Positions 7,713 to 41,647 of a stretch of DNA of 64,000 nt are shown in pieces. The first letter of the stretch is position 1. Every line of letters starts with the position of its first letter. Position numbers and translations under genes: made by a program. Source of the DNA: Levilactobacillus brevis ATCC 14869 = DSM 20054 (GTDB lineage Bacteria; Bacillota; Bacilli; Lactobacillales; Lactobacillaceae); contig NZ_AZCP01000001.1 of the NCBI RefSeq assembly GCF_001433855.1, forward strand, positions 561,187 through 625,186, given 5' to 3'. The notes under the pieces were generated by a model. That model saw nothing but the letters and a program-made list of their open reading frames with translations, ran no database searches and was not told the DNA's origin.

Positions 7713-7829
7713 GAATGTGCACCTCCTTATAATTTTAGACTTAGACTCGCCGAAGACAAGTGCTCCGCAAGCGGAAAACTTAAACTCGTTCCGAGCGGTT
7801 GCAGCTGTGGAAGTCCACAAATACAACAT
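7713..7829 (-). ncRNA. Structured 5' leader of rplU (L21 leader type)
   Basis: About 115 bases between the predicted transcription start and the rplU start codon fold on the minus strand into at least two hairpins: GTGGACTTCCAC, and CCGCTTGCGG. The region up to the AAGGAGG is too long and too structured for a plain leader. Firmicutes carry an autoregulatory L21 leader at this place (a known RNA family), so I infer feedback by L21. I could not run a covariance model; the call rests on position and hairpins. Confidence 0.65.
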
Positions 7830-8503: not shown

Positions 8504-8535
8504 AAAAGGCTAGTCCGAAAACTCGAACTAGCCCC
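8504..8535 (-). terminator. Rho-independent terminator after the dUTPase-like gene
   Basis: On the minus strand GGCTAGTTCGAG pairs with GGACTAGCC and is followed by TTTTGTT. It ends the three-gene operon and also overlaps the region just upstream of the tetR ribosome binding site. Confidence 0.8.
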
Positions 8536-8541
8536 CATTTG

Positions 8542-9084
8542 CTAATAATTATTTGCTTGTCGATCCAAATTAATTTGCCGTTTAGCCTCGTAAGCTGCTT
8601 GGATTTGATCCTGCGTAAAACCAAAATCAACCAGCCCCCACTTCAAAAACAAGCGCCACGCGTGACGAAAGTCTTCTTGACGATGGGCAAAATGACTATT
8701 GAATAGCATCCGCTTTAAGATCAAATACTGTTGATCTAAATCCTTGGCCGGTCGGCTCTTTTCTAACGTTACGAGGTCTTCTTCTTTCAGCATAATGAGA
8801 TGGGTCCACGTTTTCTTAGCTGAGACTAAAAAGAAGAAATCCATTGCATCCGTATATTCTGTTAGCAACGTTTCCATTGGCGTTTGTCCCGCATCGGCTT
8901 TACCACGATGGGTTTTCCAAACTTTAAACCATTCAGACGTGTTGGCAACTTCTGCCAATTCAACATCTAAGGCAACGTAGGCATTTTCAATTTGCTGCTG
9001 CCGCGACATTTCAATGTCACGGTCTCGTGTAATCTGTTCATCTAGCGCAATCGATTGCCGCACTAATTTAGCCAATTCTAGCAC
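8542..9084 (-). CDS. All-alpha dUTPase-like protein (dUTPase_2 family)
   Basis: I read this as a dimeric all-alpha NTP pyrophosphatase of the dUTPase_2 family, which hydrolyses dUTP to dUMP. The two metal-binding motifs are visible: ELAE (Glu42, Glu45 in VELAEVANTSEWFKVWK) and EYTD (Glu76, Asp79 in EYTDAMDFFFLVS), with the aromatic F-K-W pattern between them. The start is a GTG with GAAGGGAG upstream; a longer frame is an artefact overlapping the preceding gene. About 180 residues, usual for the family. It is the third gene of an operon with two unrecognised genes, 14 bases after the second. The C-terminal third (from about residue 95) is less familiar. Substrate could also be another (d)NTP. 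Confidence 0.75.
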   Translation of the reverse strand: MLELAKLVRQSIALDEQITRDRDIEMSRQQQIENAYVALDVELAEVANTSEWFKVWKTHRGKADAGQTPMETLLTEYTDAMDFFFLVSAKKTWTHLIMLKEEDLVTLEKSRPAKDLDQQYLILKRMLFNSHFAHRQEDFRHAWRLFLKWGLVDFGFTQDQIQAAYEAKRQINLDRQANNY

Positions 9085-9098
9085 GATTAGACTCCCTT

Positions 9099-10040
9099 CT
9101 AACCGAAAATCAATGGATCTGAGGTAATTTCTAACTCTGTTAAGTTTTCCAAATACCAATCTCGCATAAAGTCGAAACGTAGCAAAACATCAAACCATGA
9201 AATCTTCTGGTCATCATCGTGAACTGTCAACACCCATTCAGGCTGGCCTTCCAACTGATTGTTAAAAATATCAACCACAATGCCACGGCCTAACGCAATT
9301 TCTGCACCATTACCGTTGACGCCATTGGTTAACATATAATCATTTTGCGCAGCCATCACAAATAGGCGATCAACAACACCGGCTGGTAGGTCGGTCGACC
9401 GAACCGCATAGTTTTGACGGTTAGCCGCATCCAAAATATTGAAGTCCACGGAGTAACCATAGTCTTCTTTTAGGTAGCGCGCAAAATCAACCAAAATACC
9501 AACCGAGGCCTTAATCGTATCGGCCGGTACGGAATCATGTAAATCAATGATAAATAACTGAGTCAAAGCATGACTGTTAAACCGGAACATTTTCCGTTCC
9601 AAATTCAAATAGAACAAGGACTGTCCTGTCGCCCGTTCCCGGTAGTAAACACCGCCATTTTCTGATGTCTCTACCCGAAAGTTGAACGTTCCCCGATCGC
9701 CTAATGGGGTTAGTTGCTGAGTCAATTCTTCATGGTGATCACGCGACTGTAAAATCACATGTTTACCTTGGTCATGGAGTTCCAACATCCGCGACATAAA
9801 GAGAAGATAATAGTCAGCATGACTATATTGATGGGGGAACGTGACGAAGTCAGAATCTAACGTAAAATCAGCCAATTCTGTTGCAGCTGTGACTAACTCA
9901 TCAGGATCCGTGGTCTTGATCAGTTGATCCATTAATTCCGTAAAGCGTAGCCCCGTTTGCAAGCCATCCTTAATTGCATTGTTATAGTTTAATAAACGAC
10001 CACTGGTAGTCAACGTCGATGGATCATTCTCGTTAATCAT
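9099..10040 (-). CDS. Uncharacterised protein, second gene of dUTPase-linked operon
   Basis: I do not recognise this 313-residue protein. It looks soluble: no signal peptide and no membrane helix, acidic overall, with a globular alpha/beta pattern (SHADYYLLFMSRMLELHDQ, KHVILQSRDHHEEL, FNFRVETSENGG, QLFIIDLHDSV). The C-terminal half has repeated hydrophobic strands such as IALGRGIVVDIFNNQLEGQPEWVLTV, with tryptophans near the end (ISWFDVLLRFDFMRDWYLENL). It starts with an ATG inside the last codons of the upstream gene (8-base overlap) after GAGGTGACGATCG, so the two products are made together and may interact. No catalytic motif that I can name is present. Confidence 0.85.
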   Translation of the reverse strand: MINENDPSTLTTSGRLLNYNNAIKDGLQTGLRFTELMDQLIKTTDPDELVTAATELADFTLDSDFVTFPHQYSHADYYLLFMSRMLELHDQGKHVILQSRDHHEELTQQLTPLGDRGTFNFRVETSENGGVYYRERATGQSLFYLNLERKMFRFNSHALTQLFIIDLHDSVPADTIKASVGILVDFARYLKEDYGYSVDFNILDAANRQNYAVRSTDLPAGVVDRLFVMAAQNDYMLTNGVNGNGAEIALGRGIVVDIFNNQLEGQPEWVLTVHDDDQKISWFDVLLRFDFMRDWYLENLTELEITSDPLIFG

Positions 10041-10905
10041 CGATCGTCACCTCACTTTTGCCAATTAAGCTATTGATGTAGTCGGCATACAGGCTGGCAT
10101 TGTGTGCTTCGAAATGTTCAAAATCATCGAAAGCATCCCGAATACTTTGCTTTTCATAATTTAAAATCGTGTCTTCCTTAGACAAAACCAAAATTCGATC
10201 ATCATTTTCTTTAATCGTCTTGTGGGCATTTAAGGCCCGTTCATCTTCATCAGCCAGCTTGGTTAGTTGGTCAATAATAGCTTGGCGTTCTTCCTTGAGT
10301 TTGCCAGAATCCCAAGGCATACTACTCTTGGAACTATTTTCCTTTAACTGTTCCCGTAACTCCGCCTTTTGGTTGTCACGTTGCGTCTGGGCATTGACCA
10401 ATTGTTGTAGTTCCTCACTTTGCGCGGAGATTGACTCAATCTTGGCCGTATTCAGGCGTTGATTTTGGGCTTCCAACGCAAAAGAGTCACGTAGCTTTTG
10501 ATATTCCGTCTCATCAAACTGGAATTGCACATTTATAACATCTAAATCGCCAAATAATCGCCGGTCCCACCAGTTACCAAAGTAAATATGGAACAAGCCG
10601 GTTGTATATTCTTCGTAGTAGAAAAATGGGTAAATATGTCCCAAGTAATCAATTAAATTGTCACTCAAATAATGGCTGATTTGGGGGTGAATATTGTCGA
10701 CTAATTCAGCGAGGTGATTAACGGCTCGCGGTGACCGAGTCTTCTTGACCTCTTGGTAATACCGCCCTTCATCAAGCAATTCATAAACCTTTCGATCATC
10801 ATTGTGCTGTACTGCCGCTTGTAACGTGCTTAAATAATCTAATTTACTGGCGATCGCCTGTGTTAACACGTCGGCTGCACTAGCTTGTTGTTCTTGATTT
10901 TCCAT
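10033..10905 (-). CDS. Uncharacterised coiled-coil protein, first gene of dUTPase-linked operon
   Basis: Not recognised. About 290 residues from the ATG after AGGGATAAATTC; a second ATG five codons earlier lacks spacing to a ribosome binding site. The first half is globular and rich in aromatics (IYPFFYYEEYTTGLFHIYFGNWWDRRLFGDL). From about residue 135 to 260 it is highly charged and predicted to form coiled coils (QKLRDSFALEAQNQ, RDNQKAELREQLKEN, KLKEERQAIIDQLTKLADEDERALNAH). The layout is reminiscent of scaffold proteins, but there is no Walker box, so it is not itself an SMC or SbcC ATPase. First gene of the operon, with about 200 bases of leader. Confidence 0.85.
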   Translation of the reverse strand: MENQEQQASAADVLTQAIASKLDYLSTLQAAVQHNDDRKVYELLDEGRYYQEVKKTRSPRAVNHLAELVDNIHPQISHYLSDNLIDYLGHIYPFFYYEEYTTGLFHIYFGNWWDRRLFGDLDVINVQFQFDETEYQKLRDSFALEAQNQRLNTAKIESISAQSEELQQLVNAQTQRDNQKAELREQLKENSSKSSMPWDSGKLKEERQAIIDQLTKLADEDERALNAHKTIKENDDRILVLSKEDTILNYEKQSIRDAFDDFEHFEAHNASLYADYINSLIGKSEVTIDD

Positions 10906-11104: not shown

Positions 11105-11143
11105 TAAAAACTGGTCATCAACTATTTAAGTGACGACCAGTCT
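11105..11143 (-). terminator. Rho-independent terminator after glnA
   Basis: On the minus strand ACTGGTCGTCA pairs with TGATGACCAGT across a ten-base loop and is followed by TTTTTAG. It ends the glnR-glnA transcript. Confidence 0.85.
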
Positions 11144-11157
11144 TGACGTGCTAATTT

Positions 11158-40837: not shown

Positions 40838-41026
40838 TTAGTTGTTTGCGTTCTTAACCGCAACGACCTGACGGCCATCGTAGAAACCACAACTTGGGCA
40901 AACTACGTGAGACTTCCGTAATTCACCACAGTTTGGACATGGTGCTAAGTTCAGGGTAGCCAACTTAATGTGACCCCGACGCATACGCTTTTTCGTCTTA
41001 GACGTTTTCCGTGCTGGTACAGCCAA
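40838..41026 (-). CDS. rpmF: 50S ribosomal protein L32
   Basis: A 62-residue L32: AVPARKTSKTKKRMRRGHIKL at the start and a zinc ribbon APCPNCGELRKSHVVCPSCGFYDGR. The start is a TTG after AAAGGAGGTGTTTTCT; the frame's earlier ATG has no site. It follows yceD, a pairing conserved across bacteria. Confidence 0.95.
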   Translation of the reverse strand: MAVPARKTSKTKKRMRRGHIKLATLNLAPCPNCGELRKSHVVCPSCGFYDGRQVVAVKNANN

Positions 41027-41092
41027 AGAAAACACCTCCTTTAAATAAATTATATCCACTAGTGAAAAAATTTTTAAGGCTCACAAAGGCGA

Positions 41093-41647
41093 TTATTGAT
41101 CATCCTGATCAGGGAAGAAATCTTTTAACTTTGCAAGACGTGGATCAACTGGTTGATTTTCTTTCTCAACGGCTTCTAAGTCAGCTTCTGCAACAACTTG
41201 CCAGTCTTGACCGGCAGGCATCGCTTCACCTTGCTTTTCAGCGTCAGAAAGAATGTGCATCGGAATTTGTAGAATAATGTTATCCCCAACAGCTTTGTCT
41301 AAAACAACTTGGTCATCGGAAACGACCATCACAACGTCAGTTTTTTCAAACCGTTGCGTTGCGGCTGGGTCAGACACATAAAACTCCGTCATACTGAAGT
41401 TGACGGGTAAATCTACCGGTGCTAAAGATCGGCTAGATGGTACCGTCAAATCCGCAATTACCTGTGCTGTTACGACGACGTCGCCACCGTCAATGACGGA
41501 CACTGTGCCCGTCACGTGAACGGGACTTAAGTCTAAGACCTCGTCGCCATAACGCGCCATTAAATCCGCCTTCAAATCGAGTGTTTCATCGAACAAAAGC
41601 GGCTCACTGCGATGGTTCTTCCGCAGCTCGGTCAACGACCATTTCAT
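41093..41647 (-). CDS. yceD: YceD/DUF177 family protein
   Basis: A 184-residue DUF177 protein with the core VSVIDGGDVVVTAQVIADLTVPSSRSLAPVDLPVNFSMTEFYV and the C-terminal NQPVDPRLAKLKDFF. YceD is linked to 23S rRNA accumulation and is nearly always found just before rpmF, as here. A very strong promoter lies upstream. Confidence 0.92.
   Translation of the reverse strand: MKWSLTELRKNHRSEPLLFDETLDLKADLMARYGDEVLDLSPVHVTGTVSVIDGGDVVVTAQVIADLTVPSSRSLAPVDLPVNFSMTEFYVSDPAATQRFEKTDVVMVVSDDQVVLDKAVGDNIILQIPMHILSDAEKQGEAMPAGQDWQVVAEADLEAVEKENQPVDPRLAKLKDFFPDQDDQ

Follow-up and report, generated by a model that had tools for sequence, protein, structure and literature searches.

Introduction

The closest described systems to the locus reported here are the dimeric dUTPases of phages. 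In these enzymes, the His of motif IV has been proposed to select uracil, and the His-Phe pair of that motif selects uracil and deoxyribose (PMC5608427). Staphylococcal phage dUTPases that carry Ala at the His position are less specific and still active (PMC5608427). In the phage dimeric dUTPases, which bind the Stl repressor, motif VI is on the opposite face from the nucleotide sites (PMC5608427).

We analysed a stretch of 64,000 nucleotides from Levilactobacillus brevis (referred to simply as the window), which contains three genes next to glnA, named here A, B, and C. The product of C belongs to the dUTPase_2 family. A search of the literature for the trio, for SbcC beside glnA, and for a bacterial dUTPase pseudoenzyme returned nothing relevant. 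The trio was characterized by comparison with its relatives in other genomes.

Results

Organization of the locus

The positions of the three genes, of the codons discussed below, and of the terminators are given in Table 1. A, B, and C are co-directional; A and B overlap by 8 bases, and a gap of 14 bases separates B from C. The region around the terminator that follows C (8545-8490) folds with -24 kcal/mol (z -5.35), and glnA possesses its own terminator ahead of A (z -4.67). No good promoter was found between the genes of the trio, the best candidate having 9-of-12 matches, which is about the chance level. A sequence-only reading of the window had described a three-gene operon with this overlap and gap, one terminator and no internal promoter, and every one of these features was seen. 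In the same window, a ribosomal protein L21 leader (Rfam RF00559, 63 bits) was found 5' of rplU at 7733-7810 on the minus strand.

Table 1. Positions of genes, codons, and terminators of the A-B-C locus in the window.
Feature	Position	Strand	Remarks
Gene A	10905-10033	minus	ORF; ATG start, 290 aa
Gene B	10040-9099	minus	ORF; ATG start, 313 aa
Gene C	9084-8542	minus	GTG start after GAAGGGAGT, 180 aa; a dUTPase_2 protein with its catalytic residues intact
Codons of C for metal ligands E42 and E45 (ExxE)	8950..8961	minus	
Codons of C for E76, D79 (ExxD) and D82	8839..8859	minus	free-standing dUTPase_2 proteins have His where C has D82
Codon of C for W93	8806..8808	minus	operon-specific; kept in catalytic and dead C
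Codons of C for H141-x-W143....K148	8641..8664	minus	operon-specific; kept in catalytic and dead C
Intrinsic terminator 3' of C (core)	8504..8534	minus	stem-loop and T-run
Terminator-like stem-loop after glnA	11107..11144	minus	separates glnA from the trio

Distribution and gene order

A was found in 157 of 251 Lactobacillaceae genomes and B in 136. In each of the 164 Lactobacillaceae loci that had a recognizable B, the two genes were direct neighbors in the same orientation, with a gap of -64 to +12 bases. C came next after A-B in 144 of the 165 loci that were read directly, a set that includes 32 Levilactobacillus loci and a few near-duplicates. Conservation of the order A-B-C goes far beyond what chance would give, so that the linkage for which the sequence-only reading had proposed a check does hold across Lactobacillaceae. 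The closest relatives of the trio are those of Levilactobacillus and Lentilactobacillus, where the order is unchanged. Pfam detects C in only 66 of the 251 genomes, while a profile made from the operon's own C detects it in most A-B loci. The view suggested by the Pfam count, that C is missing from half of the loci, was ruled out, as the latter profile showed C to be present but diverged.

The commonest neighborhood of the trio is glnR-glnA, but it is not a constant one. In several genera, the trio follows gmk-rpoZ, pyrD, an HMG-CoA synthase-like gene, or a gene for a surface protein or a polysaccharide flippase. Since the trio sits elsewhere in these genera, glnA is a neighbor and not a partner. 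No functional clue was found in the neighborhoods outside the glnA region. It may be noted that in genus g32 (L093) A is preceded by pyrD (dihydroorotate dehydrogenase), and that in a locus of a second family (L125) pyrD precedes it at the distance of one more gene, which may be chance. Deposited as a plasmid of Limosilactobacillus fermentum, a record of 760 kb (L215, CP033372.1) holds glnA, rplU, and rpmA along with the trio, and is probably a piece of chromosome.

A-B pairs without C were found in the genera g16, g29, g12, and g33 and in a second family of Lactobacillales, probably Enterococcaceae. C is, therefore, not needed for every A-B. In the second family the pair is diverged: A was matched at E 2e-14 to 4e-8, and the gene next to it matches B at E 9e-7 to 2e-9. 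B of this type occurred in 21 genomes of the family; in a sample of 200 genomes of the class, one had A. Of the suggestion that the trio could be limited to lactobacilli, the part concerning C in the trio arrangement stands, whereas A-B extends to the second family.

Some of these loci differ in other ways. A-B of g12 and g33 (L109-L113, L128) is strongly diverged, with a B of 345-366 aa that can be aligned to other B only in the last ~100 residues. A of g29 (L090-L092, L203-L205) has only 230-235 aa and is missing the coiled-coil hairpin described below; C is absent from those loci. In one further locus (L114, genome G007), in-frame stops interrupt A, while B is intact and C is absent, possibly an early stage of locus loss.

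Proteins A and B

A and B, each taken with diverse relatives, were searched against Pfam, NCBIfam, PHROGs, and PADLOC. Nothing exceeded the cut-off for either protein, and the matches obtained were at chance level or to coiled coils; both are unrecognized proteins, as had been stated from the window. When their sequence profiles were compared with the PDB, no match was obtained for A up to E 0.01 or for B up to E 1. Foldseek with the AF2 models, both built from shallow alignments with pLDDT about 75, gave no E below 0.001 and no convincing match for either protein.

In its AF2 model (shallow alignment, pLDDT 75.8, pTM 0.59), A is predicted to consist of a small mixed domain and a long antiparallel coiled-coil hairpin, with helices at 153-192 and 197-259; the model thus agrees with the long coiled coil proposed earlier. 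The small domain contains the conserved stretch PFF..FG.WW..R.FG.LD. VIA-align yielded only middling matches to coiled-coil hairpins, among them coiled-coil segments of Rad50 at Z 9-10, values that helical hairpins commonly reach, and these matches were not used to assign A.

In the L. fermentum record CP033372.1, gene A is labeled 'exonuclease SbcC'. A has the coiled coil alone in common with that exonuclease. Unlike the SbcC/Rad50/SMC ATPases, it is a protein of 290 aa with no ATPase head and no Pfam match over cut-off. Because a Walker A motif (GxxxxGK[ST]) occurred in 0 of 165 A proteins, the label is almost certainly a coiled-coil artefact, and SbcC was rejected as an identity for A. The coiled coil was also considered as the docking site of C. 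It proved not to be diagnostic: loci with a hairpin-less A (g29, and the divergent g12 and g33) have no C, but some hairpin-bearing loci (g16, second family) have none either.

B is predicted to be globular (AF2, shallow alignment, pLDDT 75.0, pTM 0.71). The arrangement of its C-terminal part resembles that of KA1/TBP-like domains, as found in Chk1, AMPK, and Med18/20, with a best VIA-align Z of 6.8 over 87 residues and an rmsd of 3.5 for a model of pLDDT about 75. There is, however, no sequence similarity to these domains, and the Z lies below the level that would mean more than a common arrangement. The resemblance being too weak, a KA1/TBP-like identity was not adopted.

Family and active site of C

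C of the window matched Pfam dUTPase_2 (PF08761) with 71.2 bits against a cut-off of 22.9, over profile positions 2-162 of 162. It retains the metal ligands E42/E45 and E76/D79, in agreement with the ExxE and ExxD motifs read from the window earlier, as well as the K..N..R..Y tail. In place of the motif IV His-Phe pair of the classical dimeric dUTPase, it has D82-F83. For comparison, ten free-standing dUTPase_2 proteins were used, five from phages and five from other Lactobacillales. All ten possess the catalytic residues, the His-Phe pair and the tail. Position 82 was His in 10 of 10 of these and in 0 of 88 catalytically intact operon C, where it was Asp in 85, Asn in 2, and Ser in 1. As the Ala-bearing staphylococcal phage dUTPases are still active, the change at position 82 bears on specificity and not on activity. 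The catalytic forms of C, that of the window included, probably have a different (d)NTP as substrate or sense nucleotides, more than they serve as a dUTPase.

An ordinary trimeric dUTPase was present in 250 of the 251 genomes, and hence basic dUTP removal does not require the trio. The idea that C substitutes for a missing dUTPase was dropped on the same ground. In the window genome, the gene for the trimeric enzyme lies directly 5' of radA (L002 1270-1821; G000:C7, about 40874-41182).

Intact and lost forms of C

The full tetrad of metal ligands (E42, E45, E76, D79) was retained in 88 of 144 operon C, and 86 of these 88 also had the complete N-R-Q-Y tail. The other 56 had at most two of the four ligands, and their tail and the loop around K62 were gone. 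No form with three of the four ligands was seen among the 144. These lost C come from ten genera (g6, g18, g19, g20, g22, g28, g30, g32, g34, and g36). Both intact and lost C occur in g6 and g19, where they are closely related to each other apart from the catalytic region. The sequence-only reading had named the loss of ExxE and ExxD as what would refute it; by this test, the enzymatic interpretation fails for many lineages but survives for the window genome, where all ligands are kept although the uracil-selecting His is Asp.

The states of C were placed on a tree of A and B, which is a gene tree, not a species tree, and gives no direction of change. A minimum of 8 changes of state was required, and a single clade of all lost C was rejected (p-AU 2e-5). 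Loss is the natural direction, since the free-standing relatives examined were all intact. Two intact copies of g6 are nested among lost ones, which could be a regain by gene transfer; the eight changes, therefore, need not mean eight losses.

Lost C are open reading frames of near-normal length at the same position in the locus, as found by an ORF-based search that could have missed broken frames. Their dN/dS was 0.04-0.28 for the pairs with unsaturated dS, the many saturated pairs being left out; these values are above those of A and B, but far below 1. Lost C are under purifying selection. One such protein, C of L. fermentum (AYP99203.1, from CP033372.1), is labeled 'dUTPase', although E45, E76, D79, and the tail are missing.

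Operon-specific residues of C

Four residues distinguish operon C from the free-standing proteins. W93 was present in 141, H141 in 139, W143 in 139, and K148 in 137 of the 144 operon C, compared with 0, 0, 1, and 0 of the ten free-standing ones (Fisher p <= 2e-10, a statistic that ignores shared ancestry). Lost C keep these residues (W93 53/56, H141 51/56, W143 53/56, K148 55/56) along with G150 (56/56), whereas their catalytic columns scatter. Intact operon C combine the catalytic set with the operon-specific one, except for the replacement of His by Asp. The region around W93 and H141-x-W143....K148 corresponds to motif VI of the phage dimeric dUTPases. Most simply, this back face would hold C to A-B, catalysis being optional. 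Alternatively, the four residues might stabilize the fold and be inherited from a common ancestor, rather than serve in docking.

Discussion

We consider it rather likely that an A-B complex has recruited C as a subunit, with the back face of C kept for docking and its catalysis dispensable. A and B, a co-translated pair, would most likely form an obligate complex. C, an all-alpha NTP pyrophosphatase of the dUTPase_2 family, would have been recruited to it early in Lactobacillaceae and would dock through W93 and H141-x-W143....K148, away from the active site. At recruitment or soon after, the uracil-selecting His would have given way to Asp, presumably with a change of substrate. The active site would then have been lost in many lineages, with at least eight state changes on the tree, and C kept as a structural or regulatory subunit. 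A lost C could still bind nucleotide in another way.

The persistence of the lost forms weighs against C being a redundant second dUTPase or house-cleaning pyrophosphatase that decays toward deletion and shares only a transcription unit with A and B, an explanation that we regard as unlikely. A near-universal trimeric dUTPase would permit such decay, several lineages have no C, and C evolves faster than A after the loss. However, the 56 lost C in ten genera remain open, of near-normal length and under purifying selection, with W93, H141, W143, and K148 kept at 91-98%. Decay would also be expected to produce frameshifts and intermediate forms that retain three of the four ligands; no such intermediate was seen, though broken frames could escape an ORF-based search. 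The same dead forms, found in ten genera with the gene order unchanged, argue against a nucleotide-pool enzyme complex in which A-B would anchor an active pyrophosphatase of new substrate at the machinery of replication or repair, with dead C as lineage-specific exceptions. All metal ligands are present in 88 of 144 C, that of the window included, nearly always with the tail, and the change of His82 to Asp suggests an altered specificity, but neither the neighborhoods nor the protein families link A-B to DNA enzymes. We find this explanation somewhat more doubtful than that of decay. A nucleotide-pool role, raised earlier as one possibility, is probably wrong as the point of the trio, the motif being lost in 56 of 144 operon C, even though C of the window retains its ligands.

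Nucleotide-depleting enzymes occur in defense systems, and an operon of unrecognized proteins might be taken for an anti-phage or other genome-defense module, as the sequence-only reading had suggested. This is very improbable here. The only PADLOC match for A, B, and C was a chance-level one to the ZorA coiled coil (E 0.03), and no A homologue was found in 50,697 phage records. B had a single match in the plasmid collection, on the 760-kb record that carries glnA and ribosomal protein genes. The locus has a mostly fixed, core chromosomal position, and catalysis has been lost recurrently. The other option offered at the time, a housekeeping complex of lactobacilli, is probably right in type. 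Nothing in the sequence had been thought to distinguish these interpretations; comparison of relatives does so.

Returning to C as a captured subunit, a broader proposal can be made, to which we give somewhat less credence. A-B may be an undescribed core complex that lactobacilli share with a related family. C would then exemplify the repeated evolution of pseudoenzymes, its back face staying fixed while the active site is given up time after time; where a lineage retains the site, C may make the complex respond to nucleotide. If C is a captured subunit, active and dead versions of one enzyme form a natural series within single genera, e.g., Limosilactobacillus, suited to studying how an enzyme becomes a binding partner. 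A-B itself is a conserved two-protein pair in lactic acid bacteria that can be tested directly. There is also a bearing on annotation: in many lactobacilli, what is labeled 'dUTPase' is probably no enzyme, and the adjoining 'exonuclease SbcC' is not an exonuclease.

Among known systems, the dimeric dUTPase family (phage phiDI Dut, PDB 5MYD/5MYF) has a full-length match, the metal ligands and the tail in common with C of the window. Operon C differs from it in the replacement of the uracil-selecting His by Asp, the additional W93, H141, W143, and K148, the linkage to A-B, and the many catalytically dead orthologues. The staphylococcal phage dimeric dUTPases, which de-repress SaPI islands via Stl (PMC5608427), share the fold family of C, use it for protein binding, and have a variable motif VI opposite the nucleotide site. 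In contrast, C is chromosomal and has no Stl; its partner would be A-B. In this reading, C is a dUTPase-family protein that an uncharacterized two-protein core has captured and that has repeatedly become a pseudoenzyme.
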